Source: an uncultured Aureispira sp. (GTDB lineage Bacteria > Bacteroidota > Bacteroidia > Chitinophagales > Saprospiraceae). From it: 39,383 nucleotides of DNA. The position numbers were made by a program, and so were the translations under genes. A model generated the notes under the pieces. It was given only the letters and a program-made list of their open reading frames with translations, was not told the DNA's origin and ran no database searches. Below, in pieces: positions 12,546 through 34,893 of the stretch. The stretch spans positions 1 through 39,383 of the forward strand of contig CAJQOX010000261.1 in the NCBI GenBank assembly GCA_905480075.1, in the 5' to 3' direction. The number at the start of each line of letters is the position of its first letter. Within the stretch, counting starts at the first letter, position 1.

Positions 12546-13151
12546 ATGGCCTGGATAAAGGTAATAGAATATAAAGATGCAGCAGGAAAGCTAAAAAAGA
12601 TGTATGACAGGACAAAAGGCCCTGAGGACAACATTGATAATGTTCTGATGATACATAGTTTACGTCCCCACACCTTGAAGGGGCACATGGAACTGTACAA
12701 AAATGTTCTTCATAATTCAAACAACACACTACCTAAATGGTACCTGGAATCAATCGGTGTATATGTTAGTTATCTGAATGGATGTGCCTATTGTTACAAG
12801 CATCATTTTGCCGGTCTGAAACGATTGCTGAATGATGATAAAAGAGCAGAAAAAATCCTGAAATCTGTAAAAAAAGATAAAATGAGTGAATGTTTTGAAA
12901 AAGATTATCTTGAGGGCCTTAATTATGCTAAAAAATTGACAATTGAACTGCATAAAATTAATAAAGAAGATATAGAGAGATTGCGTCAACAGCAATTTTC
13001 AGATGGAGAAATTCTGGAAATCAATCAGGTAGTATCTTATTTTAACTATGTAAACCGCAGTGTGTTGGGACTGGGAGTAGATACAGAAGGAGATATATTG
13101 GGCTTATCGCCAAACGATGAGGAGAATGAAACCAATTGGGGACATAAATAA
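12546..13151 (+). CDS. AhpD-like / carboxymuconolactone decarboxylase family protein
   Basis: A 201-residue all-helical protein of the peroxidase-related AhpD group. The active-site motif is NGCAYCYKHH (Cys80, Cys83, His87), matching the CxxCxxxH core in which the two cysteines carry out peroxide or disulfide chemistry. The surrounding helix (ESIGVYVSYLNGC) and the later segment VSYFNYVNRSVLGLGV are also typical. No signal peptide is present, so it should be cytoplasmic. It ends the three-gene plus-strand set and is followed immediately by a strong terminator. AhpD partners in other bacteria are peroxiredoxins; none is adjacent, so the substrate remains open. Confidence 0.85.
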   Translation: MAWIKVIEYKDAAGKLKKMYDRTKGPEDNIDNVLMIHSLRPHTLKGHMELYKNVLHNSNNTLPKWYLESIGVYVSYLNGCAYCYKHHFAGLKRLLNDDKRAEKILKSVKKDKMSECFEKDYLEGLNYAKKLTIELHKINKEDIERLRQQQFSDGEILEINQVVSYFNYVNRSVLGLGVDTEGDILGLSPNDEENETNWGHK

Positions 13152-13198: not shown

Positions 13199-16100
13199 TT
13201 AATTGTGAGCAGAACTTGCTTTATTTTTAAAGCTACTGTAATCAGAAGGGTTAGAAATAAGCACTTCATAATAAGTACCATTTGGTGTTTTTACTCTTCT
13301 GTCCTTCGGCTTGAGTGAAGATATAGCATTATTATACAGCGGATTGGAAGATACAGTTTTAAGAAAGCCATTCTGATAAGAGAAATAATACCAATCCCCG
13401 TTAGCTGAGGCGAAATAAAAAGTCAATGCATCTCCCCTTGCAGGATCGTTTAATATTTCGAGATGTCCTTTAACTACCTGACCAATATGTTTACCCCCGA
13501 CAGATGAGAGCTGAAGTCGGCGCCCTTTAGTAATAAAAGATTGGGTTTTAGGACTCCATAAAAATTTATTATTGATAAAAAAGAAAGTATATTTGAATCC
13601 GTTCGGGAGTTGTAACCTTTCATCGTCCTTCACTTTTTTCCACATTTTATCAAATTTCCTTTCATCAGGTACATAGTTTTTCATATGCTGAAACAACTTA
13701 TCATTTTTAATACTTGCATAAAGGACTTTATCAGCCAATTCAGGATTAGATAACAAATCGGTAACTATAACATCTTTAAGTGCCTGAGGTACATAAAAAT
13801 CTAGATTCATAGAAGTCTCAAAAAGGTATTCAGATTCCGTATCAAGAAAGAAGCTGAAATCCCCGACTACATCTACTAATACAGGAGGAGAAGTGACAGA
13901 ATTAAAACCCTTATTAAAATCAAACCTGCCAGAAGCAGTAACTTTCAGGTTTTTTTCAGAAACAGTAAACAACTTTCCTGCATCACCGTCATTGAGAACT
14001 CTTGAAGAATCACCAAAGGAATAAATTTCTTTCCTGTTATCAAACTTAAGGACACCTGTTGCCGAGAAAATACTACGGTCTGAAGGGTTTCTTTTAGGGG
14101 ATAGTACAGTAGGATATAAAACCATCGTATCGAGGTCAAGAAATAATCCTACATACATTACCTGTCCTTCAGGGTTTTTAGGGTTATCGTATTCAATAGA
14201 CACATCTTTTTTATCAACTTCTGAATTAATGGCAAACCATTCCTGCGTGGGAATAGCGGCAGAGGAAATTTTAGCATAGCCTTTAAAGTTCAGCAGCTTT
14301 GAACTGGCAATGAGGTTTACATTCCCTTTGAACCTTGTACGTTTGTCTAGAAAGAAGTTTGCAGAATCGCTGACAGCACCGGAACCGACAGTAATAAAAC
14401 TTCCTGGCGAAGACTGTGAAACGGTTACATTATCAAACAGAATTTCCTGCTCTTTAAAACCTTCAACATTAAATTCGAGAAAACCATCAGCAATATATTC
14501 TCTACGGCTCAAGACATTAATAGTTGCCCTTTGTATAACGTGATTTTGGTTCAGGGTATCGGCCACAACTCTAGAATCAAGTAAGGTATGCATTTTAGAT
14601 CCACCTTCTATTTCAACATGTTTATCTTTAGGATAAATAAAGGCATCTGCTACCCTGATAAATTCTACTCCATCAATTTTCAGCAGGCTGGTATTGAGGT
14701 CAAAATCCGCAATTTCACCTTTAAAAATCAGAGAATCCTGCGACTGTTCAGTAGCGAGGAAGAAGCCCGACTTTCCATCCTGAGCCTCCATAATAATATG
14801 ATTGGTCGCCATATCCCAATGAAATTTATTCAGGGTGGTTTCATAACTGTTATAAGGTAAATCTGTAGCTAAATCCTGTTCCAACGAGATAAAATCACCC
14901 GTTTGTTTTTCAAAATCCACTACAGCTTCTACGTTTTCATTGTCAAAGGCGAATTTAAGTTCTCCATAGGTTTTAAGCATCAAAGATGTTGATTTAGAAG
15001 CAATAGACAAAGAGCCAAAATCGAAATCCCCGCCAGGGTTTGATTTCATTGTAGCACCATGCCAATCAAAAGTTCCTCTGCCTTTAAGTCCTCTGGGCGT
15101 AAGTGTAATAGAACCATCACTGAGATTAAAATCAGTAGAATCGAAGAACTGAAAAGGGATACCATCCACATCTATAGATTCAACATACATACTATCGCTA
15201 TAAGGGGTCCATTCAATCTTAACCTGTTGACCTTTTACATCAGGAAACGCTACGCCATCTCTTTCGGAACCAACAAGAAGGAAACTATCTACATTATCTG
15301 CTTTAAAATAATCAGGTATAAATTCAATATATTCTGATTCGATGGTAGCCCCCAGATAATTTAGTGTTCCATTGCCAAGAAAACCTTCATTACTGACACC
15401 GACGATACCTTTAAAGACCCCTTTTCCCTTTTTATCATCTCTAATGTACACAGGGTTAGGATCATTGCCCCTTGTTTCGGTTTCAAAACCAAGGGAAAGA
15501 TCATGATACATTACACTGAGTTTTTCAGTTATCGGTTCAAAAATATCGGCAGCATAGAGTTTACCATCAAAGACAAGTTGTTCAGGCTCCAGTTCATCCA
15601 TTCCATCGAGCATAAAAGGCTCCAGTTCATAATAGAATGATTCTCTTGGGTATACATCCCCGAGGCGGTTATTTCTATCATAATAGACTCGGGAATTGGT
15701 AGTTAATTCGAAGGAAGGATAAATGGGGTCGCTGATCATTCTACCCGATTTATTTGAAGGAACATCAATAAGAAGCAATCCTGTTCCTCCTTCAATAACA
15801 GAGTTTATGGGTTCTTTATCATAAGATAGCTCCTGAGTCTGTTTATTTATGGCCCTTTCTTTTTTAGGACGTCCAGCCATGAGTCCGGCATTTTCATCGT
15901 ATCGTTCTCTTTTAAAGATAAAAATATCCATAAAATTAATACTGTCGAGCTCAACATGAAAGATTTCATAAATGAAATGAAAATTCATTCCGGTAAAGTT
16001 GCAAAAGCCTCCCGTCATAACACCATTAAAGTCCATATCACGACCTTTTTTCATTTCTACAAGGCCTTCAAATGGTTTTGCAACCACCTGCTGTGAATCA

Positions 16101-18241
16101 CTAAGGATAAATTCCTGTACTCCATATGTTTCAATTACCCCCTTTTTCATATCAAAGACAGCATTGGCTGCTTTTTTATTATTATGGGAGGGGACAGATT
16201 TAATTCGGATTTTATCAAAATCGTGGTCTCTTTGTTTCCTGTTAACGGAAGCAGCATAATGAAAGAGTTTGTCCCGTAGAGTAATCGTTCCGTTTTCATC
16301 ATTATAAACCAGGAAACCATCTTTTACCATCTCCAGGAACAAAGGCAAGGAACTTCTCTTGTCAAAAGTTGAGCGTGGCACCACGGTAAGTAAATCGTAG
16401 ACATTCATTATACCAAACTTAAAAGTTCTGGGATATCCTTTTACAAAATCCCTGTAATCCTGATCTCTAGTTATTTCTTTAAAAATGGGATTCTTTTTAG
16501 CTTTTTCAACTTCTTCAGCAGTCAGTATCGTAATTTTTTCCATTCTGGGGTCAAGCAGTGCAGCCAATTCATCAGCGTCAATAATTCTTGGTCCCGTTTC
16601 GATCATATCTATTGGTTCAGGTTCTTCTTCCATTTCTTCAGAGGGAGGCCATTCGCCAATTTCTTTCAAAAAAGCAGTATCAAGGGGAACATCTTCTTCG
16701 CTATCATCAAATAGTCGATTACCAAATCCATCACAAAAATCTGGTTGCATTTCACAAAACTCTTCATCAGTAAGTGCCTCTTCCCAGGATTCTTCAAATT
16801 CCTCTTTCTCACCTGATCCTTCAGACTCCTCAAGTTTGATAGAATAAACGGCAAATTTAATTATTGGATTTATGGAACTGATATTCTGATATTTTTCAAA
16901 TAATCTCTGGTCAAAATGATTCTTTGAAGCCATTTCAAGATTCTGAACATTATCACCAAGTATTAAATTATCAGTATCAATAAACCATTTCATAGCAGTA
17001 ACTTTCAGGTCCATTTCCTGTAGAGAATTGGTAAAAGCAACCCTTGAAGTTCGGGTTTCACCACGCGTAAGTTCAACATACCTGTTGGTAATATTATAAA
17101 GAAAATGAATACTTGGGTGGAAAATAGAATCGACTGTAGCATCATCATTATAAATGTAGAGGACTACTTCAGAATCCTTAGAAATAACCTTTTCCCCTTT
17201 AAGAATATCAAAACTACTGGATTTTGCTTTGATAACAACTTCTCCTTTAGAGTTTTTGACGGTTATAACAGACAATCCTTTTTTATCTCCGTGGCCCTGT
17301 ACAGATGAACCTGACATGGCAAAACCTCCAATATAATTAACCCCTTCACCAATATCATCCATTTTAATATTTCTGTATTTGGATTCAAATTTGGGATAAC
17401 GTAATTTTTTACTGTTGCGTTTGGTGGCAACATCTCTTAGCGTACCGACAATTGGTTTTTTAAAAATTGAATTATAATGCAAAACAGCATCATAAGAACT
17501 ATAAGAGGTAGACCGGGTAGAGATAGTATATTTCTTTAGCATAGCATAGGCATCTGATGCACCTTCAGAGGTCCAGTTCACTCGTCCTTCAATACCTTTA
17601 AATTTTTGTTCAAGTGGATAATAAATCCCTCTGACATCCTGAATTTCCAGTGAATCACTTTTGTAGAAACAAATTAAATTAGTTTTTTCATATTTGATAG
17701 ATAATACGCCGTCCTCATATTTCATATCAAAAACCCTGCTTTCAGATTTCCACTTGTGGCTACCTTTGGAAATATCATACAAATTTCCTGTTTTCCAAAA
17801 TGAACGGAAAAACTTCAGGATATTTTCAAAATCTGCAGATTTACCTGCAGGTTGATCTTTTAGTAATTTTATTGCTAATGAAATAAATTTATCAAAATGT
17901 TGGGAAGAAAGACCGCTATCATCGGAAAAAGAATTAATAATTACAATGAGGTGTCTGAAAAAGTTAAAACGTTTCATATTATGGGCAATCATCTCATTTC
18001 CCAGATCAGCAAATCCCTGATAATGTTCTGAAGTCCATTTATTTGACTTTTGCTTTTGTTTCCATTCTTCCATTATCTCTACACATTCATTGCGTTTTGT
18101 TTTTAGCATTATTTCCTCCATATATTTATAACATTCTGAAGGAGATGTAGGTATTAGATCGAGGGGTTCCTCCTCCTGACAAAATACAGACGTAGAAAGA
18201 AAAAGAATAGCAGTCAGTGAAATAAATTGTAAAAATTTCAT
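13199..18241 (-). CDS. giant secreted protein of unknown function (1,680 residues)
   Basis: The signal peptide (residues 1-22, ending STSVFCQ) indicates export. The order is: a helical N-terminal part (about 35-150); a beta-rich module (about 180-470) with FKGIEGRVNWTSEG, LHYNSIFKKPIVGTL and GVNYIGGFAMSGSSVQG; a very acidic linker (about 470-560, runs of Glu/Asp and a Cys pair in CEMQPDFCDG); a short helical segment (about 570-660); then some 900 residues of beta strands with recurring themes such as FKGIVGVSNEGFLGNGTLNY, LKGRGTFDWHGATMKS and VEFIRVADAFIYPKDKHVEI. These strand repeats recall stacked LptA/OstA-like or AsmA-like sheets, but that is inference. I recall similar very long uncharacterised proteins in many Bacteroidota. 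No catalytic motif and no T9SS tail are evident. It is transcribed downstream of prmA, probably as its own unit. Confidence 0.8.
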   Translation of the reverse strand: MKFLQFISLTAILFLSTSVFCQEEEPLDLIPTSPSECYKYMEEIMLKTKRNECVEIMEEWKQKQKSNKWTSEHYQGFADLGNEMIAHNMKRFNFFRHLIVIINSFSDDSGLSSQHFDKFISLAIKLLKDQPAGKSADFENILKFFRSFWKTGNLYDISKGSHKWKSESRVFDMKYEDGVLSIKYEKTNLICFYKSDSLEIQDVRGIYYPLEQKFKGIEGRVNWTSEGASDAYAMLKKYTISTRSTSYSSYDAVLHYNSIFKKPIVGTLRDVATKRNSKKLRYPKFESKYRNIKMDDIGEGVNYIGGFAMSGSSVQGHGDKKGLSVITVKNSKGEVVIKAKSSSFDILKGEKVISKDSEVVLYIYNDDATVDSIFHPSIHFLYNITNRYVELTRGETRTSRVAFTNSLQEMDLKVTAMKWFIDTDNLILGDNVQNLEMASKNHFDQRLFEKYQNISSINPIIKFAVYSIKLEESEGSGEKEEFEESWEEALTDEEFCEMQPDFCDGFGNRLFDDSEEDVPLDTAFLKEIGEWPPSEEMEEEPEPIDMIETGPRIIDADELAALLDPRMEKITILTAEEVEKAKKNPIFKEITRDQDYRDFVKGYPRTFKFGIMNVYDLLTVVPRSTFDKRSSLPLFLEMVKDGFLVYNDENGTITLRDKLFHYAASVNRKQRDHDFDKIRIKSVPSHNNKKAANAVFDMKKGVIETYGVQEFILSDSQQVVAKPFEGLVEMKKGRDMDFNGVMTGGFCNFTGMNFHFIYEIFHVELDSINFMDIFIFKRERYDENAGLMAGRPKKERAINKQTQELSYDKEPINSVIEGGTGLLLIDVPSNKSGRMISDPIYPSFELTTNSRVYYDRNNRLGDVYPRESFYYELEPFMLDGMDELEPEQLVFDGKLYAADIFEPITEKLSVMYHDLSLGFETETRGNDPNPVYIRDDKKGKGVFKGIVGVSNEGFLGNGTLNYLGATIESEYIEFIPDYFKADNVDSFLLVGSERDGVAFPDVKGQQVKIEWTPYSDSMYVESIDVDGIPFQFFDSTDFNLSDGSITLTPRGLKGRGTFDWHGATMKSNPGGDFDFGSLSIASKSTSLMLKTYGELKFAFDNENVEAVVDFEKQTGDFISLEQDLATDLPYNSYETTLNKFHWDMATNHIIMEAQDGKSGFFLATEQSQDSLIFKGEIADFDLNTSLLKIDGVEFIRVADAFIYPKDKHVEIEGGSKMHTLLDSRVVADTLNQNHVIQRATINVLSRREYIADGFLEFNVEGFKEQEILFDNVTVSQSSPGSFITVGSGAVSDSANFFLDKRTRFKGNVNLIASSKLLNFKGYAKISSAAIPTQEWFAINSEVDKKDVSIEYDNPKNPEGQVMYVGLFLDLDTMVLYPTVLSPKRNPSDRSIFSATGVLKFDNRKEIYSFGDSSRVLNDGDAGKLFTVSEKNLKVTASGRFDFNKGFNSVTSPPVLVDVVGDFSFFLDTESEYLFETSMNLDFYVPQALKDVIVTDLLSNPELADKVLYASIKNDKLFQHMKNYVPDERKFDKMWKKVKDDERLQLPNGFKYTFFFINNKFLWSPKTQSFITKGRRLQLSSVGGKHIGQVVKGHLEILNDPARGDALTFYFASANGDWYYFSYQNGFLKTVSSNPLYNNAISSLKPKDRRVKTPNGTYYEVLISNPSDYSSFKNKASSAHN

Positions 18242-23385: not shown

Positions 23386-24735
23386 TTGAAACACTTACTA
23401 CTTACGATTGTATTTTTTCTACTGAATTCAAATTTGTATGCTCAACCGGTATTAAAGCCATCGATCGGTATAGCTTCCCTGCCTTCTGATTCTGATACTA
23501 TCTGCAGCTTCACACCTTATCTGGGAGATTTTGACACATCAGGGTATAACATCGGTGATACTATCCCCGATTTTACCTTATATACCCTGTCAGGTACTCC
23601 TGTAAATATTCAAACAGTACTTGGTCAGGGCAAGCCCGTCTTACTGATCAGCGGTAGCCTTACCTGCCCTGTATTCAGAGAAAAATTACCTGATATTAAC
23701 AACATGTATAATCTGTATGCCGGGCAGTTGGAGATATTCATCATCTATGGCATGGAAGCACATCCCACCGACCCGAGCCCCTATAGTGGTGCCGTATGGA
23801 TTACAAATAAAAACCAACAGGAAGGCATTTTATATCCTCAACCTATTACCTATGGGGAGCGAAAAGCCTTAGCGGATACCTTGCATACTCTAGGTAGTAT
23901 CAGCCCTGATATATTAATAGACGGTGCCTGTAATGAATGGTTGATGAATTTTGGGCCTGCACCTAATAATGCCTACCTTATTGATACCACAGGAATAATT
24001 TACGAAAAACAGGGGTGGTACCACAAAATTCCGGATGATATGTACTGTGAAATTGATAGTTTGATTGGTACAAACAGTGGAATGTGTAATGCAGCTGGAA
24101 ATAACGGGACTTTCAGTTTCGCTTACCCGGGAGATACTATTGATTATGGCACTACCGGAGATGTTTTGGCAGTGCACGCCACCCTATCAAACAACTCTTC
24201 TACTGACAATGTAGTTATAGATATTATCCGATGGCAGGTCAATGTACCTATAGGATGGACAACTGCAATGTGCCTTGATGTTTGTCTGCCTCCGCATGTT
24301 GACACTACACAGCTTACAATTATTCCGGGTGCGACACAGGATTTTACTTTTTACTTTTATACTGACCCTATACAAAATGGAATAGGTCATGCTTACATAG
24401 GCTTTAAAAATACCAATATTCCACAAAATAAATTTTTTAGGAAATTCTGGGGAGAAACTAGTAAAGTAACTTCTTCAGATAAAACAGATATTGATCATGA
24501 ATCAATTAATTTTTATCCTAATCCATCTGAAGGAATTTTCTTCTTACATTGTAGCAACTCATTTGAAGGATCTATTATAGTCTTGAATACAAATGGGGAA
24601 ATTGTGAAAGATTCAGGTTATACAAGTTGGTCTGAAGGTTCTGAACTGAACCTTACAGGATTACCTGCCGCCCTCTATATTATTCAGATAAAAAAAGATA
24701 ATGAGCTAATTAATAGAAAAATACTGCTTCGATAG
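23386..24735 (+). CDS. secreted deiodinase-like thioredoxin-fold protein with T9SS sorting tail
   Basis: A 449-residue protein starting at TTG (23,386); no ATG occurs before residue 107, and TTG gives a clean signal peptide (MKHLLLTIVFFLLNSNLYAQ). Residues about 55-228 form a thioredoxin-like domain closest to iodothyronine deiodinases: SGSLTCPVF places Cys94 where deiodinases have selenocysteine (FGSxTUPxF), IFIIYGMEAHPTD matches the conserved EAHP/S-D segment with His126, and ILIDGACNEWLMNFG, NNAYLID and GIIYEKQGWY follow in the same order as in vertebrate enzymes. An Ig-like domain (about 240-365) and a T9SS type A tail (from INFYPNPSEGIFF to KILLR) complete the protein, so it is exported across the outer membrane. 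A simple peroxiredoxin-like or thiol reductase activity is the alternative. It is followed by a bidirectional terminator. Confidence 0.8.
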   Translation: MKHLLLTIVFFLLNSNLYAQPVLKPSIGIASLPSDSDTICSFTPYLGDFDTSGYNIGDTIPDFTLYTLSGTPVNIQTVLGQGKPVLLISGSLTCPVFREKLPDINNMYNLYAGQLEIFIIYGMEAHPTDPSPYSGAVWITNKNQQEGILYPQPITYGERKALADTLHTLGSISPDILIDGACNEWLMNFGPAPNNAYLIDTTGIIYEKQGWYHKIPDDMYCEIDSLIGTNSGMCNAAGNNGTFSFAYPGDTIDYGTTGDVLAVHATLSNNSSTDNVVIDIIRWQVNVPIGWTTAMCLDVCLPPHVDTTQLTIIPGATQDFTFYFYTDPIQNGIGHAYIGFKNTNIPQNKFFRKFWGETSKVTSSDKTDIDHESINFYPNPSEGIFFLHCSNSFEGSIIVLNTNGEIVKDSGYTSWSEGSELNLTGLPAALYIIQIKKDNELINRKILLR

Positions 24736-24776: not shown

Positions 24777-26393
24777 TTACCTGATGATGAAACTACCGGT
24801 AATTTTACTTTTATCATTAGTAACCTGAACAACGTAAAGCCCGGCCTTAAAATTTTTTAATGGAATTTCAATCTCATTATTTCCTGATTTAAACAAAAAA
24901 GGACGATCAATTTGCAAGGCTCCGATTACATTATAAACTTTAATTCTTCCTTCTCCATATTGTAAACAACTGAAAGATATTGAACAATTATCTTTTGCTG
25001 GGTTTGGATGAACTAAAAGGTTATTGAAAGTAGTTGAAATCTCTTCCATAGCAGTATTTGCTGAAACAGTAACAACATTATTGGTTTTATCACTATGAAA
25101 TCCTGCAGGATCAATGGCAGAAACTGATACTTCACCTTGTGTAGCAGTAGTATAGAACTGAACATCCACCGTGGAGGCATTCAATACAGGTGACACAATT
25201 AGACCTCCATTTATCTCCCAACAGTAAGTATGATCTGACTGAGGGTTCAGCACAGAATAAGAATAATTGGTGGCTGAAACAACATTGGATGGCCCTGTAA
25301 ATGAAGGCAGGTCAGGCTTCATGATCTTATAGAAAAAATCAGCGGTTTTCTGTATAATATCCGGCCAGTAGGCATTGGGCCCGGAAAGGGTCCAGTTTCC
25401 GTTGACTACCCCCCAGTATTCATGGTTTTCTCCCTGTGCATAATAAGCCTCATGTAAAATAGAATCTGCTGTAAGAACAGAATCCATCATATATGTGCCG
25501 CAGGTAACCGGTGCAACAAGAATTACACTGGAAAAGGGTTTGTTACATTTATTATCGACAACCAAATCGCCGGTACCATGAAACATAATAGCAGGTGCAT
25601 GATTCCCGGAAGCATTTATCCAGGACAAATCGGCAATTGCTCCCCAATAAGCAGCAATTCCCTGTGGAATGGAATCAACATCGTCCGCAAGAACTGAAGC
25701 GCCTGAAAAAGGATTAAAACCCGAGAGTTCCACAACAGGACGACTATGCAATGCGCCCAGGTCTTTTTTCAGCAGAGGGACCAATTCATAACTTTCTGAC
25801 ATCCTTTCAGTATAATCCACAAAGGTACTATGCAAGGCACAAAAGGCGCCTGCAGAAGATCCTGCTGTAAAAACCCTGTCCGGATCAACACCGAACCAGT
25901 TTGAATTTTTGCGAAAAAACCTGACTGCAGCACTCATATCCTGTGCACCGCGCCACATTGCCCTTTTTATACTTGAAGTACTCAAAACATTAAATCCAAG
26001 CCTGTATTCAATAACCGCTGTTACGTAACCCCAATGTGCCAATGTATCAGCAAGGGCCTGTACATCATCATTGTCCTTTGTTCCAACCAACAGAGTTCCT
26101 CCCATAAAGGCAACATTAATAAATCCACCTCCATGTCCAATAATAATCACGGGTCTGTTACTCACCGTATCGGTAACAGGTGGCATAAAAACATCCATAA
26201 CCAAATCTTTGTTAAAAGTAGTTTCAGTAGTGAGTGATGCTGCAATCAATGAGGGCGCATCCTTTGAGTAAACAACATCCTGAAAAACCTGAATACTACT
26301 AAAGTAGCGGGTCTTGTAGCGGTCATTGCATTGCCCAAAAACAGTTAAGTGAATAATAAATACAGAAAACAAAAGGAATATAAATCTGATCAT
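24777..26393 (-). CDS. secreted alpha/beta-hydrolase esterase with T9SS sorting tail
   Basis: A 538-residue protein with signal peptide ending VFGQ. Residues about 60-355 are an alpha/beta hydrolase of the carboxylesterase type: oxyanion-hole motif GHGGGF (86-91), nucleophile elbow GSSAG (Ser180), probable acid Asp276 in HGTGDLVVD and His324 in GENHEYWG. A PKD-like domain follows (about 365-445), and the C-terminus has the T9SS type A pattern LVHPNPAKDNCSISF with KVYNVIGALQ and a final SFIIR. It should be delivered to the cell surface or medium and hydrolyse carboxylic esters; the natural substrate is unknown. It is divergent from the subtilisin pair over 165 bp and convergent with the deiodinase-like gene, itself a T9SS substrate. 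Confidence 0.87.
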   Translation of the reverse strand: MIRFIFLLFSVFIIHLTVFGQCNDRYKTRYFSSIQVFQDVVYSKDAPSLIAASLTTETTFNKDLVMDVFMPPVTDTVSNRPVIIIGHGGGFINVAFMGGTLLVGTKDNDDVQALADTLAHWGYVTAVIEYRLGFNVLSTSSIKRAMWRGAQDMSAAVRFFRKNSNWFGVDPDRVFTAGSSAGAFCALHSTFVDYTERMSESYELVPLLKKDLGALHSRPVVELSGFNPFSGASVLADDVDSIPQGIAAYWGAIADLSWINASGNHAPAIMFHGTGDLVVDNKCNKPFSSVILVAPVTCGTYMMDSVLTADSILHEAYYAQGENHEYWGVVNGNWTLSGPNAYWPDIIQKTADFFYKIMKPDLPSFTGPSNVVSATNYSYSVLNPQSDHTYCWEINGGLIVSPVLNASTVDVQFYTTATQGEVSVSAIDPAGFHSDKTNNVVTVSANTAMEEISTTFNNLLVHPNPAKDNCSISFSCLQYGEGRIKVYNVIGALQIDRPFLFKSGNNEIEIPLKNFKAGLYVVQVTNDKSKITGSFIIR

Positions 26394-26558: not shown

Positions 26559-28217
26559 ATGATTTTAGCGATTTTGTTCATTTTTACAATTTCAATCCTT
26601 CCACTAAACGCACAGACAACCGAATCTGACGAAACAGAACACAGCCTGCATCTCATAAAATTTACAGATAAATCTGGAAGCCCTTTCAGTATTTACAGAC
26701 CTCAGGATTTCTTAACAGCTAAGGCATTGGAACGACGGGAAATTCAGGGCATTATGATCGATGATTATGACCTGCCGGTGAACCCGGATTATAAAGAAAA
26801 AATTATGGAGGAGGGAGTACTTATTCAAGGGCAATCAAAATGGCTGAATGCCCTCTCCATTCACTGCGAAAGTAAAAAGATATTAGACAAGATCCGTCTT
26901 CTACCCTTTGTAAAATCGGTCTGTCCGCTGGGAAAATTCCGAAAGATTAAAAAAGGAAAAATGTATAGCCGCCGACCGGAAATAGACAGTTCTAAACACC
27001 AGAAAAGTTATTATGGCCTGGCCAAAAATCAGATAGAAATGTTGGGAGGAATTCACCTTCATCAAATGGGATTCACCGGCAGGGGGGTACACCTGGCAAT
27101 AGTGGACGGTGGCTTCAATAATGCCTACAGAATGTCTGTTTTTGATAGTTTATATCTTGAAAACAGGCTATTGGGCACACATGATTTTGTTGATGGGGAC
27201 GATTATGTATATCAAAGCAGTACACATGGTACATCTGTCTTGTCTACCATGGCATCAAAACGCCCTAACCTGATAGTGGGCACGGCACCTGATGCATTTT
27301 ATTATTTATTTAAAACGGAAGATGTCAGAGGAGAATATAAAGCAGAGGAGTTCAACTGGATAACGGCAATGGAATATGCTGACAGCATCGGGGTGGATGT
27401 AGTGAACTCTTCTATGGGATACAATCATTTCAGGGATACTTCTATGTCTTATTCCTATAAAGATATGGACGGCAAAACCGCTATGATTACCCGGGGTGCA
27501 AATTTTGCAGTGTCGAGGGGCTTGCTGATTGTAAATGCCGCTGGAAATGACGGACACAAAAAATGGCATTACCTTTTTGCCCCTGCCGATGCAGCGGGTA
27601 TTTTTACCGTTGCTGCAGTGGACGAAAATAAAAAAAGAACTAATTTTAGTTCCTGGGGGCCAACTGCCGATGGAAGGATAAAACCTGATATTGCGGCTCA
27701 GGGAGGAAAAACTGCTTATGCCACTATGACAAAATATGATGTTGGTTATGGAGACGGAACCTCTTATGCCTGTCCGGTTATGACAGGAATGGTTGCTTCC
27801 CTGAAACAGGCATTCCCCATGAAAAGCAACATAGAAATTTTAAATGCTATCCGACAAAGCGGACATCAATCCATAAAGCCTGATTCTTCCTTAGGATATG
27901 GAATTCCCGATTTTCTGAAAGCCTGGTTTACCTTAAAGGAAAGCTATATTTACATTAGCAAAGAAGGGGTTTTAAATAAAAAGCTAAATATAAAAAATCA
28001 GGACATTGAGATTTTTATTACTACTGAAGTAACTGATTCTTTGATGATAAAGATTTTTAATACAAAAGGAGAACAGGTAGCTGAACAAAGCACTACTTTA
28101 GAAGTAGGAATAATCAATAAAATAATACTTCAAAAATCTGAAAAATTCCTGAACAGTTGTAACATAATACAATTAATAAAAGGTAAACAAAAGTATTGGA
28201 TAACACTTATCAGATAA
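26559..28217 (+). CDS. secreted subtilisin-family (S8) serine protease, copy 1
   Basis: A 552-residue protein with signal peptide MILAILFIFTISILPLNAQ. After a pro-region (about 25-150, with PFSIYRPQDFLTAKALERR) comes an S8 catalytic domain with an intact triad: Asp183 in IVDGGF, His223 in SSTHGTSV, Ser402 in GDGTSYACPV, and oxyanion-hole Asn330 in NAAGNDG. The C-terminal 90 residues (IKIFNTKGEQVAEQ to KYWITLIR) look like a divergent T9SS-type beta-sandwich, without the usual NP motif. It is a likely surface or extracellular endopeptidase. It is a tandem duplicate of the next gene with triad residues at identical positions. Frame and start are clear. Confidence 0.9.
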   Translation: MILAILFIFTISILPLNAQTTESDETEHSLHLIKFTDKSGSPFSIYRPQDFLTAKALERREIQGIMIDDYDLPVNPDYKEKIMEEGVLIQGQSKWLNALSIHCESKKILDKIRLLPFVKSVCPLGKFRKIKKGKMYSRRPEIDSSKHQKSYYGLAKNQIEMLGGIHLHQMGFTGRGVHLAIVDGGFNNAYRMSVFDSLYLENRLLGTHDFVDGDDYVYQSSTHGTSVLSTMASKRPNLIVGTAPDAFYYLFKTEDVRGEYKAEEFNWITAMEYADSIGVDVVNSSMGYNHFRDTSMSYSYKDMDGKTAMITRGANFAVSRGLLIVNAAGNDGHKKWHYLFAPADAAGIFTVAAVDENKKRTNFSSWGPTADGRIKPDIAAQGGKTAYATMTKYDVGYGDGTSYACPVMTGMVASLKQAFPMKSNIEILNAIRQSGHQSIKPDSSLGYGIPDFLKAWFTLKESYIYISKEGVLNKKLNIKNQDIEIFITTEVTDSLMIKIFNTKGEQVAEQSTTLEVGIINKIILQKSEKFLNSCNIIQLIKGKQKYWITLIR

Positions 28218-28362: not shown

Positions 28363-30024
28363 ATGAAATATTCTCTACTTATACTGACATCGATAGTTTC
28401 CATTCATCTGAATGCACAAAAAAATGACTATAATCATCATGGACACAGCCTGCATTGCATAGAATTCACCGATAAGAAGAACAGCCCTTTCAGTGTTTTC
28501 AGACCCCAGGAATTTCTATCTGCCCGTGCTCTGGAAAGGCGTGAATTACAAGGTATTGAGATTGATGAAAACGATCTCCCTGTTTCCCCCGACTACACAG
28601 AACAAATAGTAGCCTTAGGTGCTCCCGTTCATGCAAAGTCAAAATGGTTAAATTCCCTGGCGGTACATACAAAAGACACGCTCTTACTTAAAAAAATAGC
28701 TGAACTACCCTTTGTAAAAGCGGTGTATCCTTTGGGAAAATTTCGTAAAGCAGAAAAGCCAAAAATGAACAAGAAACGTCCTAAGGTTGACCCTTCCAAG
28801 CACGAGAAGGACTATTATGGACAGGCCGATAATCAGATAAAAATGTTGGGTGGCGATGTTTTACACAGCTATGGGTATACAGGTAAAGGTGTACATGTTG
28901 CCGTGTTGGACGGTGGCTTTCTGAACGTATACAGAATGCCGGTTTTTGACTCTATGTTTAATGAAAACAGATTACTGGGCACGCATGATTTTGTTCAGGG
29001 CGACCGTTTTGTCTACGAAAGCAGTTCACATGGTTGTAATGTGTTGTCCTGTATGGCTTCCAAATCACCTCATCTGATGGTAGGGACAGCACCTGATGCC
29101 TCTTACTACCTTTTTAAAACGGAAGATGTTAAAGGTGAATTCAGAATCGAAGAATTCAATTGGGTGGCTGCAGTAGAATATGCCGACAGCCTGGGGGTGG
29201 AAGTAATTAATTCCTCGCTGGGATATACCGGATTCAACGATACCACTATGTCCTACAAATATCATCAGCTGGACGGAAAAACGGCAATGTGTAGCAGAGG
29301 GGCTGAAATAGGTGCCTCTAAAGGAATCTTGATTGTGAACAGCGCCGGTAATGAAGGAAGTGGTCCCTGGCATTATATAGGTACTCCTGCAGACACAAGG
29401 GGTGTACTTTCTGTTGCAGCAGTTCGCCCTGATGGCAAACGTGCTTCTTTCAGTTCCTGGGGCCCTACTCCTGACGGTAGAATTAAACCTGATATTGCTG
29501 CACAAGGAAGACATACTGTGGTAGCATCAATGACAAAATATGATATCCAAAGAACGAACGGCACCTCTTTTTCTTCTCCCGTTATGGCGGGAATGGTTGC
29601 CTCATTAAAACAGGCTTTCCCCGACAGAAACAGCGAGGAAATAAAAAATGCCATCCGAATGAGTGGCAGTATTGCCTCGCAGCCCGATTCATCACTGGGC
29701 TTTGGTATTCCCAATTTCTTCTTTGCCTACATGGCAATGCTGGAATCAAGTATTATTATTGACCACAGAGGGGAATTGTATTATGCCCCCAAAATTATAG
29801 ATTCACAGTTACATCTTTTTGTGGAACAACGTAAGGCTACAACAATAAAACTGACACTTTTTAATAATTTCATGCAGGAAAAATATATGTATGAAGGTTT
29901 TACCAAAGGCAACGAAATTGCTGAAGTAAAAATTCCTGACCTGAAAGACTGGCCCAAAGGGGTTTATATTTTAAAAATAGAAATAGGTCTGAACAGGTTT
30001 TGGTTAGAAATGGTCAAATCATAA
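28363..30024 (+). CDS. secreted subtilisin-family (S8) serine protease, copy 2
   Basis: A 553-residue paralog of the preceding gene: signal peptide MKYSLLILTSIVSIHLNAQ, matching pro-region (SPFSVFRPQEFLSARALERR) and the same domain order. The triad is intact at the same residue numbers: Asp183 in VLDGGF, His223 in SSSHGCNV, Ser402 in NGTSFSSPV, with Asn330 in NSAGNEG. Differences concentrate at the surface near the active site: STHGT becomes SSHGC, SYACPV becomes SFSSPV, and the segment after the oxyanion Asn differs, which suggests divergence in specificity. The C-terminal region is again a beta-rich T9SS-like tail (YILKIEIGLNRFWLEMVKS). The duplication is old, since the DNA has diverged visibly. 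Probable extracellular protease. Confidence 0.9.
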   Translation: MKYSLLILTSIVSIHLNAQKNDYNHHGHSLHCIEFTDKKNSPFSVFRPQEFLSARALERRELQGIEIDENDLPVSPDYTEQIVALGAPVHAKSKWLNSLAVHTKDTLLLKKIAELPFVKAVYPLGKFRKAEKPKMNKKRPKVDPSKHEKDYYGQADNQIKMLGGDVLHSYGYTGKGVHVAVLDGGFLNVYRMPVFDSMFNENRLLGTHDFVQGDRFVYESSSHGCNVLSCMASKSPHLMVGTAPDASYYLFKTEDVKGEFRIEEFNWVAAVEYADSLGVEVINSSLGYTGFNDTTMSYKYHQLDGKTAMCSRGAEIGASKGILIVNSAGNEGSGPWHYIGTPADTRGVLSVAAVRPDGKRASFSSWGPTPDGRIKPDIAAQGRHTVVASMTKYDIQRTNGTSFSSPVMAGMVASLKQAFPDRNSEEIKNAIRMSGSIASQPDSSLGFGIPNFFFAYMAMLESSIIIDHRGELYYAPKIIDSQLHLFVEQRKATTIKLTLFNNFMQEKYMYEGFTKGNEIAEVKIPDLKDWPKGVYILKIEIGLNRFWLEMVKS

Positions 30025-31733: not shown

Positions 31734-34730
31734 TCATTCATTGGAAGCAGGTTCTGAAATAACAGCATCATAAACTACTTCTTGTATTCTGGAACGGATA
31801 TCCTTTCTGATTAGTGTCATATTTTCCCCTGAAGGAAAGGTTCTGTTTGATAAAAAAAGATATACTATTTTATTTTCAGGATCTCCCCAGGCGCCAATTC
31901 CTGTAAAACCCTGATGTCCGAATGTCATATCAGAAGCCTGGTAAGCAACATTAATAGAATTTTTGGGTTCAGAACTTACTTCCTTTCTGTCAAAGCCAAT
32001 ACCCCTGCGTGAATCCTTACTGAATTTAGCAGTAAATTTTTTGACAGTAGCCTCTTTCAAATATCTTTTACCACCATATTCTCCACCATTAATCAGCATC
32101 TGATAAATGGCCGACAGGTCCTGTGCATTGGAGAACAAACCGGCATGTCCCGAAACACCATTAAGCATGCCTGCCCCCATATCATGTACATCACCCTGAA
32201 CCACCTGATAGCGAAAATACTGATCGTATTCAGTAGGGATTATCTGATTCCGGGGAACACCTTCCTTAAGCGGGTTGAACATAGCAGTAGTAAGTCCCAT
32301 TGGCCGGTAAAAGGTTTCGTTAGCATATTCATCGAGGCCCATTCCTGATACGTTTTTAATCAGTTTGGCAAAGAGGTAAAACCCAAGATCACTGTATTTA
32401 TAGTTTCGTTTTCTTCGTAAATCCTGATCATAAATAGGTTGCCAAAGTACAGAATCTATCTTTGACTGGGCAAAATAAAGATTTTCAGCAATACGTATCT
32501 TATAATCCTCACTTTCTTCTTCAGCATAATACCTGCCCATAATGGGTTTTTTAAACTTGTCCAGTGTTTTCACATAAAAGGGAATCCAGGGTTTTAGTCC
32601 TGCTTTGTGTAACATAATATCTCTGATGGTCATTCTCGATTTATTCGTGCCTCTCAATTCAGGAAGATAGAAACTGAGGGGCTGATTGATATCTAATTTA
32701 CCTTCATCCACTAATCGCATTATAGAGATAGTAGTTGCTGCTACTTTGGTAACTGAAGCAAGGTCGTAAACATTGTCGAGTTTCACCCTTTTTTGTTTTT
32801 TATAGGTATAGTGACCAAAGGTTCTGTGATAAGCAATTTTACCATCTTTTGCCACGAGTACCTGACAACCCGGGGAAGCCTTGGCACGAATCATTTCGGC
32901 AGCGATTTTATCAATACGGGCAAGAATTTTTGAATCGAGCCCGGTTTCTTCAGGGCTTGAAGCATAAACCATTTTTTGGACTTCGGTATCTTTTCCCATA
33001 GCATATCTGAATTTTTTAGAGGCAGTAACAGGCAATCTCCCCCTGAAAGGCAGGGCACCTACTACGGCTCGTGCAGTTAATTTCTGAGTAAGGTTTTCAT
33101 CGTTATAAGCCACTACAACAGCCTGTGCAGAAGGAAAATTTTTGAGTGCATAGGGACTGCCGAAAGCAACCACAAGCACTTTTGTTTTGGCGCTTAATTG
33201 TTTCACAAACTTCTGAATTCCGGCAGAGACACCAAAATTGCTATTAATTTTTTTGTTGAGATTGTGCACAGCTACAATTACGAGGTCTTTTTTTGCCAGT
33301 TGATTGATACGTGCAGCAGATACTGAGGATTTCGAATTAAAATGGTCCTGTACAGAATATCTTTTCAATTCCTTCTGAAAGGGAGTTTCTGCTTTGGCAG
33401 TCCCCACGGATATACAGGCTATTTTTTTCTTACCAAGCGGGAGCAGGTCCGTTTCATCTATGAGCGTTAGCGCATTAGATACAATATCATTTTTAAGCTC
33501 ACTGTTTTCCAGTATATTCAGTCGTTTAACGACATTTGTTGCATTAACGGGTTTATATTTAAAGAGTCCCATATTATATTTTGCATGTAGAATTTTACGA
33601 ACTCTTCTGTCAATTTCATTCCATGTAATCAGATTACTGTCTATCGCCTCGTATATTTTCTTTTTTGCCTTGGGGATATCCTGAGTAACCAGTAAAATAT
33701 CATTTCCTGCCAACAATGCACGCAAATCCGTTTCCCCATCTTTGAAATGTTTTGTTACTCCTCTCATATTCAAGGCATCAGTAAAGATGAGCCCTTTGTA
33801 TCCGAGCGTTTCTTTCAGCAATCCGGTTACAGCAGGTTTTGAAAGGGTGATAGGTAAATTAGGAGTGGAATCGAGTGCCGGAATATGCAGGTGCGCTACC
33901 ATAACAGACTGTACTCCGTGCTGTGCCAGATTTTTAAATGGATAGAGTTCTATACTATCAAGTCTTTGCAAGCTGTGATTGATAACAGGCAGGTCTTTAT
34001 GAGAATCCACATCGGTATCTCCGTGCCCGGGAAAATGTTTGGCACAGGCCATCACTCCGTTATCCTGCAAGCCACTGATATACTGAAAAGATTTAGCAGT
34101 AACATTTTCTCGGTTTTCCCCAAAGGAACGGTCACCGATAACAGGATTGGCAGGATTGTTATTAACATCCACCACCGGTGCAAAATTAATGTGTATGCCC
34201 ATTGCCTTACATTCATTAGCTACAGCAGCACCAAATTCATAGATCAATGCATTATTCTGTATCGCCCCCATCATGAGCTGACGAGGAAATTTTACAGAGG
34301 CTGATACTCTCATATTCGTCCCCCATTCGGCATCCATCGCCATCATCATAGGAAATTTGGACCTCGCCTGATATTTGTTGGTCAGTGAGGCAATTTTGTC
34401 TTCCAGCCCCCTGAAGAAAATAATACCTCCGATTTTGTGGCTGTCAATATCGTGCAGAATTTTCTTTTCGTCAGATGCCCCCTTAGGTGGATAGGCCCCC
34501 ACCATAAATAATTGCCCCAACTTCTCATTTTGAGACATCTTAGCAAATTGTGCATCCACCCAGGCAGCTTCTTTCTTACGTTTTTCCTCCGCATGCTTTA
34601 TTTCCCGTCCAATAGAATCCTGCATAAACTGAATACGAGCCATTGAAACAGCATCCGGAATATCGGATTGACACATAAAAAAACTAACAGCCACAACAGT
34701 AAAAACAGATAATAAAATTCTCAGGGTCAT
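31734..34730 (-). CDS. GH3 beta-N-acetylhexosaminidase fused to a beta-lactamase-like serine hydrolase
   Basis: A 998-residue exported protein; the frame extends 12 codons upstream, but MTLRILLSVFTVVAVSFF is a better signal sequence. Residues about 55-400 form a GH3 domain of the NagZ type: substrate-binding KHFPGHGDTDVDSH (catalytic His232 of the family's Asp/His dyad region) and nucleophile Asp318 in LIFTDALNM. A GH3 C-terminal alpha/beta sandwich follows (about 420-590). The C-terminal third is a class C beta-lactamase fold with Ser659-x-x-Lys662 in ASVTKVA, Tyr779 in YSDLGF and His939 in HQGFTG. NagZ-type enzymes cut GlcNAc from anhydro-muropeptides, and the hydrolase could act on the peptide or ester part, so one chain may process cell-wall fragments twice. 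Similar fusions exist in Bacteroidota. Confidence 0.9.
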   Translation of the reverse strand: MTLRILLSVFTVVAVSFFMCQSDIPDAVSMARIQFMQDSIGREIKHAEEKRKKEAAWVDAQFAKMSQNEKLGQLFMVGAYPPKGASDEKKILHDIDSHKIGGIIFFRGLEDKIASLTNKYQARSKFPMMMAMDAEWGTNMRVSASVKFPRQLMMGAIQNNALIYEFGAAVANECKAMGIHINFAPVVDVNNNPANPVIGDRSFGENRENVTAKSFQYISGLQDNGVMACAKHFPGHGDTDVDSHKDLPVINHSLQRLDSIELYPFKNLAQHGVQSVMVAHLHIPALDSTPNLPITLSKPAVTGLLKETLGYKGLIFTDALNMRGVTKHFKDGETDLRALLAGNDILLVTQDIPKAKKKIYEAIDSNLITWNEIDRRVRKILHAKYNMGLFKYKPVNATNVVKRLNILENSELKNDIVSNALTLIDETDLLPLGKKKIACISVGTAKAETPFQKELKRYSVQDHFNSKSSVSAARINQLAKKDLVIVAVHNLNKKINSNFGVSAGIQKFVKQLSAKTKVLVVAFGSPYALKNFPSAQAVVVAYNDENLTQKLTARAVVGALPFRGRLPVTASKKFRYAMGKDTEVQKMVYASSPEETGLDSKILARIDKIAAEMIRAKASPGCQVLVAKDGKIAYHRTFGHYTYKKQKRVKLDNVYDLASVTKVAATTISIMRLVDEGKLDINQPLSFYLPELRGTNKSRMTIRDIMLHKAGLKPWIPFYVKTLDKFKKPIMGRYYAEEESEDYKIRIAENLYFAQSKIDSVLWQPIYDQDLRRKRNYKYSDLGFYLFAKLIKNVSGMGLDEYANETFYRPMGLTTAMFNPLKEGVPRNQIIPTEYDQYFRYQVVQGDVHDMGAGMLNGVSGHAGLFSNAQDLSAIYQMLINGGEYGGKRYLKEATVKKFTAKFSKDSRRGIGFDRKEVSSEPKNSINVAYQASDMTFGHQGFTGIGAWGDPENKIVYLFLSNRTFPSGENMTLIRKDIRSRIQEVVYDAVISEPASNE

Positions 34731-34893
34731 TCTCAGAAAGATAATAAAACAGTAAAAAAATAACATTGCTTAAAGGTATAAATCAATCCATCAAACAAAA
34801 AATTTTTAATTAAAATAAAAATTAAATTATTTCTATTTTTATTTTGTTAACATAAAAATGTTACCTTTTAGATGGTGTTTGTAAACTAAATGA

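Follow-up and report, generated by a model that had tools for sequence, protein, structure and literature searches.

A predicted exported, cysteine-type deiodinase-like redox protein encoded by an uncultured Aureispira

In this study, an open reading frame (ORF) from an uncultured Aureispira sp. was found to encode what is probably an exported, cysteine-type, deiodinase-like redox protein of the thioredoxin/peroxiredoxin superfamily, which would work outside the cell. The ORF starts with TTG and lies in a stretch of 39,383 nucleotides, here called the window, which makes up all of contig G000:C261; the genome totals 5.08 Mb, is split into 408 contigs and is 92% complete. A first-pass annotation of this DNA had described a cysteine-type homolog of the iodothyronine deiodinases (DIOs), linked to an Ig-like domain and exported by the type IX secretion system (T9SS). 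The ORF is present where it had been placed, and the deiodinase motifs quoted for it, with a TGC codon for Cys94, are found (Table 1). Pfam, profile searches of PDB sequences and fold matches of a predicted structure bear out a cysteine-type homolog of the deiodinase superfamily.

Assignment to the deiodinase superfamily

When the single protein was searched against Pfam, T4_deiodinase (PF00837) passed its cut-off of 27 with 29.7 bits (E 4.8e-7), whereas AhpC-TSA fell 0.7 bits short (25.3 bits, cut-off 26) and Redoxin was also under its threshold (22.4 bits, cut-off 26.6). The profile check proposed by the first-pass annotation thus leaves the homology unrefuted, with T4_deiodinase ahead of AhpC-TSA by 4.4 bits. 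Mouse DIO3 was the top match of the single protein among PDB sequences (E 2.2e-4). With a profile of 68 aligned rows (alignment A2, window included), DIO3 (3.1e-14) and DIO2 (2.1e-12) ranked first, and the first plain thioredoxin-fold protein, T9SS tails set aside, was of the ResA type (4nmu, 2.7e-5). T4_deiodinase was matched by 65 of the 68 rows at E<=0.01, Por_Secre_tail by 47, AhpC-TSA by 42 and Redoxin by 33; the NCBIfam model deiodinase_rel (NF038285) was matched by 68/68 at E<=0.001. The window protein itself reached E 4.4e-25 with the latter, but its 88.9 bits fall far short of the 250-bit threshold; on this score it is a relative, not a member, of that model.

The superfamily signature (S/N)-x-(T/S)-(U/C) is present as S91-L-T-C94, and the superfamily insertion with E-A-H-P at residues 124-127. 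CxxC is absent at Cys94 (C94-P-V-F97), and Cys occurs at position 97 in 0/72 rows of a residue table of bacterial proteins that includes the window. This table holds one domain per ORF, so that the first domain of the second L097 ORF (Cys and EAHP kept) is uncounted, and it omits both L002 pieces, L099 (cut by the contig end), L023 and mouse DIO3. A2 additionally lacks L025 (minus strand), L082 (masked bases), L106 (TGA), L115 (TAG) and the window duplicates. The search of genome contigs for relatives returned at least 80 stretches and at least 66 loci with an 11-row alignment (A1); with the single protein it returned 18 pattern stretches and no relative.

The AlphaFold2 (AF2) model of the mature protein (pLDDT 93.5, pTM 0.72) points to the same superfamily. 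By VIA-align, DIO3 came first (Z 17.9, 2.8 Å, 167 residues aligned) and DIO2 second (Z 17.8, 3.0 Å, 168 aligned). The next match after both DIOs had Z 16.6 (2.2 Å, 145 aligned), and the remaining 48 matches listed had Z 14.0-16.6 over 129-159 residues; the structure comparison with DIO3, also proposed earlier, likewise leaves the homology unrefuted. Foldseek, run on the whole model, placed Mycobacterium tuberculosis DipZ at ranks 1-5 (best 7.0e-9), followed by DIO3 (1.5e-8). The C-terminal region of DipZ (2hyx, 5cyy) likewise has a thioredoxin-fold domain followed by a second domain; with TM-scores of 0.27-0.41, root-mean-square deviations of 13-14 Å and Z 14.2 at best, the likeness is probably no more than an analogy in domain order.

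In the tree, both mouse DIOs and the 72 bacterial rows were split from four thioredoxin-like rows with support of 100/97, a split that carries long-branch warnings, DIO and thioredoxin rows included, and an unsettled bootstrap. The second L097 ORF was omitted from the tree and L023 was kept. The tree labels "T9SSform" and "short" were assigned by hand, not from any search for the tail. A crude test for a PNP tail motif within the C-terminal 100 residues, which found it in 45/76 ORFs, gave none in L097 and L098, although both carry the T9SSform label.

Active site and its selenocysteine counterpart

DIO3 numbering and the roles of Sec170, Ser167, Thr169, Tyr197, Glu200, His202, Gln218 and Arg225 follow PMC7506546. 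The Ser167, Thr169, Tyr197, Glu200 and His202 network of DIO3 has counterparts in the window protein, and these positions are kept in nearly all of the 72 rows. Position 94 is Cys in 70 rows, Ser in one and an in-frame TGA in one. Tyr121 (72), Glu124 (71), His126 (71) and Pro127 (72) are near-invariant; Gln152 (65), Arg159 (71), Asp179 (72) and Asn183 (68) are also kept. Position 93 is Thr (62) or Ser (10), and position 91 is Ser (57), Asn (14) or Cys (1).

Other residues of the vertebrate enzymes are lost. The proximal Cys of DIO3 (Cys168), which in DIO1 carries glutathione-dependent reduction (PMC9141512), is replaced by Leu92, with Cys there in 0/72 rows. His219 is replaced by Pro153 (P 60, A 9, H 2 and T 1 at this position), and Tyr257 and Phe258 by Ala192 and Pro193; a proline also stands at the Phe258 position in DIO1 (PMC11592359). 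The Glu259-Arg260 pair, which is taken to bind thyronines at their amino-acid end (PMC11592359), is Asn194-Asn195 here, with Arg at 195 in 0/72 rows. Without a proximal Cys, a counterpart of His219 or the Glu-Arg pair, deiodination of thyronines by the DIO route is unlikely, and so, judging from the sequence, is thyroid-hormone deiodination by this protein. A reading as a thyronine deiodinase is therefore not supported: the proximal Cys, His219, Tyr257, Glu259 and Arg260 of DIO3 are without counterpart.

The placement of Cys94 at the selenocysteine (Sec) position was corroborated by its alignment with DIO3 Sec170 and by one relative. In L106 (Dehalococcoidales ARS1168; L106:1336), an in-frame TGA replaces the Cys94 codon (FGSFT-TGA-PPFR). 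The genome of L106 has a SelB match of 331.6 bits (cut-off 242, passed by 2/14 control genomes), and the bases 3' of the TGA fold as a short hairpin with a GGUC loop; bacterial selenocysteine insertion sequence elements have a small apical loop with G (PMC1088965). The L106 protein is a probable selenoprotein. The TGA at this position, SelB in the same genome and the downstream hairpin together indicate that Cys94 occupies a site where another member has Sec. In the Aureispira genome (92% complete), the best SelB match was 189.3 bits, under the cut-off of 242, in agreement with the Cys form.

At L097:5203-7410, two adjacent ORFs hold three catalytic-type domains in all. The last of these, second in its ORF, has Ser for both Cys94 and the His126 of EAHP; since the first domain of the same ORF keeps Cys and EAHP, the change looks like the decay of a duplicate.

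Linked domain, export and other cysteines

The Ig-like domain of the first-pass annotation was confirmed and can be named more closely as PorA-N-like. Residues 236-376, folded alone by AF2, gave a pLDDT of 92.7 and were poor at the end only. The N-terminal domain of PorA from Porphyromonas gingivalis (6kjk) was the top match both by Foldseek (E 1.0e-6) and by VIA-align (Z 12.6, 2.8 Å, 116 aligned; next Z 10.6). With a sequence profile of the linked domain, 6kjk was the sole PDB match, a weak one (E 0.34), in which the CxxxC motifs of both proteins were aligned. PorA, like the window protein, has an Ig-type fold in which CxxxC occupies the corresponding position, and is a T9SS C-terminal-domain protein; it affects PorXY-SigP signalling in P. 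gingivalis, is proposed as a surface-signal relay, and its domain has been likened to the FimH lectin (PMC7712824). The available part of the same paper reports no deiodinase-like domain for PorA.

The same fused domain was found in 47/68 A2 rows, window included, and both Cys of CxxxC were present in 47/47. The architecture is thus not a one-off. No paper in the literature searched mentions both deiodinase and type IX secretion, so that within the reach of that search the architecture can still be called uncharacterized. The fused domain is absent from 21/68 rows, namely L083, L085, L090, L092, L096, L104, L097, L098 and the short forms. L083, L085, L090, L092 and L096 are main-clade ORFs of 323-333 amino acids; L104 also belongs to the main clade, and L097 and L098 to a side branch. 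A separate PorA-like gene stands beside the deiodinase-like gene in 3/21 unfused rows, all three among these five main-clade rows: directly downstream in L083 (same contig as L009) and L092, and divergent and upstream in L090, whose partner ORF has both Cys of CxxxC. No further stand-alone PorA-like copy was found among ORFs of at least 90 amino acids from 68 regions. Nine separate PorA-like ORFs or frames that were examined hold C-x(3 or 4)-C, and a PorA-like domain occurs in 42/60 related genomes at E<=1e-5, own included (e.g., L011, L012, L017, L020, L021, L022). PorA-N-like domains also occur widely in the family as small stand-alone proteins, and C-x(3-4)-C is present in those that were read; the Aureispira genome has two additional PorA-N-like matches on C114.

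The claimed T9SS tail and export were upheld by sorting-domain scores, with Por_Secre_tail at 39 bits (Pfam) and the T9SS type A sorting domain TIGR04183 at 34.8 bits (NCBIfam, cut-off 23), and by secretion components in the same genome. SprA_N was matched with 549 bits in a frame of 2506 amino acids, and GldM was over its cut-off at two places. At the other end, Gln20 is nearly invariant across the 11 rows of A1. Under the Bacteroidetes Q-rule for signal-peptide cleavage (PMC5837995), the signal peptide would be cleaved before Gln20. The protein is therefore predicted to be exported as a T9SS type A cargo. More than one GldM-like gene is present in this genome (C160 and C183), with two places above cut-off.

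Several other cysteines vary among relatives. Cys182 occurs in 53/72 rows and is absent outside the main clade. It covaries with C40 (both in 53 rows, neither in 17, C40 alone in 2); with two changes of C182 and four of C40, the tree offers too few events for a test, and the Fisher p of 1e-14 counts related rows as independent and is not a fair test. C221 and C234 are both present in 40 rows and both absent in 30, C234 alone occurring in 2, with 7 and 9 changes on the tree. A 2-Cys pair of Cys94 with Cys182 was considered and set aside; C182 is confined to the main clade and travels with C40.

Table 1. Features of the deiodinase-like ORF, in window coordinates
Feature	Position	Strand	Basis or remark
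Whole ORF, 449 amino acids	23386..24735	+	ORF list; Pfam and NCBIfam; order: signal peptide, deiodinase-like domain, PorA-N-like domain, T9SS type A tail
Probable Sec-type signal peptide, residues 1-19	23386..23442	+	Sequence; predicted cleavage before Gln20 (Q-rule)
Deiodinase-like thioredoxin/peroxiredoxin-type domain, about residues 50-232	23533..24081	+	T4_deiodinase over residues 56-206; AF2 model vs 4tr3 Z 17.9, 9h48 Z 17.8
Active-site motif S91-L92-T93-C94	23656..23667	+	DIO3 Ser167-Cys168-Thr169-Sec170; Cys94 codon TGC at 23665-23667
E124-A-H126-P127	23755..23766	+	DIO3 Glu200-Ala201-His202-Pro203; deiodinase insertion loop begins here
Q152-P153 to R159	23839..23862	+	DIO3 Gln218-His219 to Arg225; Pro in place of His219
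D179-G-A-C182-N183	23920..23934	+	Cys182 confined to main Bacteroidota/Ignavibacteriota clade (tree)
G190-P-A-P193-N-N-A-Y197	23953..23976	+	Pro193 at DIO3 Phe258 position; Asn-Asn at DIO3 Glu-Arg260
PorA-N-like Ig-fold domain, about residues 236-362	24091..24471	+	AF2 pLDDT 92.7; 6kjk top by Foldseek and VIA-align
C296-L-D-V-C300, CxxxC of PorA-N-like domain	24271..24285	+	Aligned with ALCFGQC of PorA
T9SS type A C-terminal sorting domain, residues 377-447	24514..24726	+	Por_Secre_tail 39 bits; TIGR04183 34.8 bits

Proposed function, occurrence and significance

From the computed fold, Cys94, active-site network and tail, we infer a reaction, a reductant and a pairing of the other cysteines. 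Once exported by Sec and cleaved before Gln20, the protein would cross the outer membrane through the T9SS and would be held at the surface or released. The Cys94 thiolate, within the network of Ser91, Thr93, Tyr121, Glu124, His126, Gln152 and Arg159, would attack a soft electrophile in the manner of a peroxiredoxin and become a sulfenyl species; the most likely target would be a peroxide or another oxidized small molecule. Since Cys94 lacks both a proximal Cys and a CxxC, another thiol would have to reduce it. The favored in-protein reductant would be the CxxxC of the linked PorA-N-like domain; in three unfused relatives, the neighbouring gene would supply the CxxxC domain. We advance only tentatively the further idea of a two-part extracellular redox unit of Bacteroidota, in which the CxxxC of a PorA-N-like domain, fused in most cases and otherwise encoded by a neighbouring gene, reduces oxidized Cys94 or passes on its oxidation state.

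Several points weigh against an exported, cysteine-type, deiodinase-like redox protein with such a partner. We infer its catalytic activity from sequence, the single-protein margin over AhpC-TSA is small (29.7 vs 25.3 bits), and the Z lead of the model over the next fold is just 1.3. The covariation of C40 with C182 would fit a structural disulfide, C296-C300 may be a closed structural disulfide as well, and a resolving role of Cys182 or C296/C300 is unproven. Two of the five main-clade unfused relatives (L085 and L096) have no PorA-like gene nearby in the DNA scanned, and the PorA-like partner of L092 lacks the first Cys of CxxxC. Gene surroundings offer no clue: in a sample of 68 regions, many of them short (part of the window, L004 and L050-L115), 12 neighbour sets recurred in at least three regions and none in more than five, and no conserved neighbourhood was found.

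Alternatively, the protein could be a true outer-surface reductive dehalogenase that removes iodine or bromine from halogenated aromatics (iodotyrosines, bromophenols) by the DIO mechanism, which we consider unlikely. Brominated aromatics are common at marine sites, and some relatives come from records named for such sites, e.g., ALOHA_ZT_63. The catalytic network of the DIOs is retained across the 72 rows, and Pro193 stands at the Phe258 position as in DIO1, opening the cleft (PMC11592359). However, Arg is missing at 195, His stands at 153 in just 2/72 rows, and no halogen-chemistry Pfam name appeared among the window's other ORFs that were scanned. Cysteine is also a weaker dehalogenating nucleophile than Sec.

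It is similarly doubtful that the protein is a surface redox sensor, in which oxidation of Cys94 is passed to the PorA-N-like domain for signalling as PorA supposedly does via PorXY-SigP. Foldseek, VIA-align and the alignment of CxxxC identify that domain, the deiodinase-like and PorA-like parts are fused or adjacent, and the proposed relay role of PorA in P. gingivalis (PMC7712824) would fit. A common fold, however, does not establish a function. The PorA-like domain occurs in far more genomes (42/60) than the deiodinase-like one (8/60), indicating that it does not depend on the latter, and no linked signalling gene turned up in an analysis of this genome that was not aimed at PorXY or SigP.

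It is highly improbable that the protein is an ordinary member of the TlpA/ResA or AhpC type with no more than a likeness to deiodinases: AhpC-TSA and Redoxin also match and ResA-type and peroxiredoxin chains reach Z of about 14-16.6, but T4_deiodinase scores higher, the A2 profile parts DIO3 from ResA, there is no CxxC, and the tree groups the mouse DIOs with the bacterial rows, long-branch warnings included. A non-catalytic surface binding module with Cys94 as a relic, for which the double Ser change in one L097 domain might speak, is just as remote, given Cys or Sec in 71/72 rows and the retained network.

The distribution of these proteins is patchy among Bacteroidota. A window-type protein occurs in 8/60 related genomes, own included; at E<=1e-15, the catalytic-domain profile was matched in 5/395 genomes across the phylum and in 10/199 in the family, own included. 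Relatives aligned over most of the length range from 63% identity (G003, same genus) down to 32% (G058), and the closest named relative among the matches listed is from Aureispira sp. (L050, 55% identity); Chitinophaga is another genus to which relatives are assigned. Among the same matches, the fused form has named relatives in Bacteroidota and, at two loci (L065, L073), under Ignavibacteriota; records with short forms are assigned to Chloroflexota, Planctomycetota, Verrucomicrobiota, Kiritimatiellota, Acidobacteriota, Pseudomonadota, Myxococcota, Armatimonadota and Bacteroidota. A plasmid collection gave one distant match, a "deiodinase-like protein" of Mycolicibacterium (E 1e-9). A second copy in the own genome (L002, G000:C57:6405-7725) lies in two frames, broken after a TYGERK motif, and a similar gene in G005, placed in the same genus (L008, L076), is open; the broken copy is either a pseudogene or an assembly error.

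The recurrent neighbours may reflect chance or close kinship. They include a family-2 glycosyltransferase gene upstream in three regions (L057, L059, L099), a kynureninase-like or related gene in three regions, and an OmdA/DUF1801 gene that stands just upstream in L053 and L058 and about 5.4 kb downstream in the window. The convergent neighbour in the window (24777-26393) is T9SS-tailed and esterase-like (BD-FAE/carboxylesterase). Beyond it lie tandem subtilase genes of near-equal length and domain layout (26559-28217 and 28363-30024) and a glycoside hydrolase family 3 gene fused to a serine beta-lactamase-type domain (31734-34766). Elsewhere, the window holds an IS200-type Y1 transposase close to the contig end (144-710), a weak carboxymuconolactone decarboxylase match just under cut-off (12546-13151) and an ORF of 1680 amino acids without a Pfam match at E<=0.001 (13199-18241).

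Bacterial deiodinase-like proteins have been in print since 2005 (PMC1088965; also PMC2398784 and PMC13188914). Cys and Sec forms from the Sargasso Sea and GOS sets (PF00837; NF038285) belong to the same superfamily as the window protein, which adds the PorA-N-like domain and T9SS tail and stays under the NF038285 cut-off; it is a patchy Bacteroidota variant of these known proteins. With vertebrate DIO1-3 (4tr3, 9h48) it shares the fold, deiodinase insertion included, residues equivalent to Tyr197, Glu200, His202, Pro203, Gln218 and Arg225, and Ser/Thr beside the catalytic residue. It differs by Cys for Sec, Leu92 for the proximal Cys, Pro for His219 and Asn-Asn for Glu-Arg260, by an insertion loop about 10 residues longer than that of DIO3 (P127 to Q152 vs 203 to 218), and by a signal peptide and T9SS tail, whereas the DIOs are membrane-anchored (PMC9141512). 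A 2025 review reports that gut bacteria have deiodinase-like enzymes acting on thyroid hormone (PMC12521424), and in the available parts of the literature searched, no tested function surfaced for bacterial deiodinase-like proteins.

In sum, the window protein probably represents an exported, soluble, cysteine-type family that keeps the active-site network of the deiodinases without the residues that hold the hormone. Deiodinases are known as hormone enzymes; such a family would be a good system for studying the original reaction of the fold. The PorA-type link offers a concrete partner for the deiodinase-like domain and a possible chemical role for the PorA domain. If the two-part unit is true, PorA-type domains would have a redox role, and there may be a route from surface oxidants to T9SS-linked signalling.

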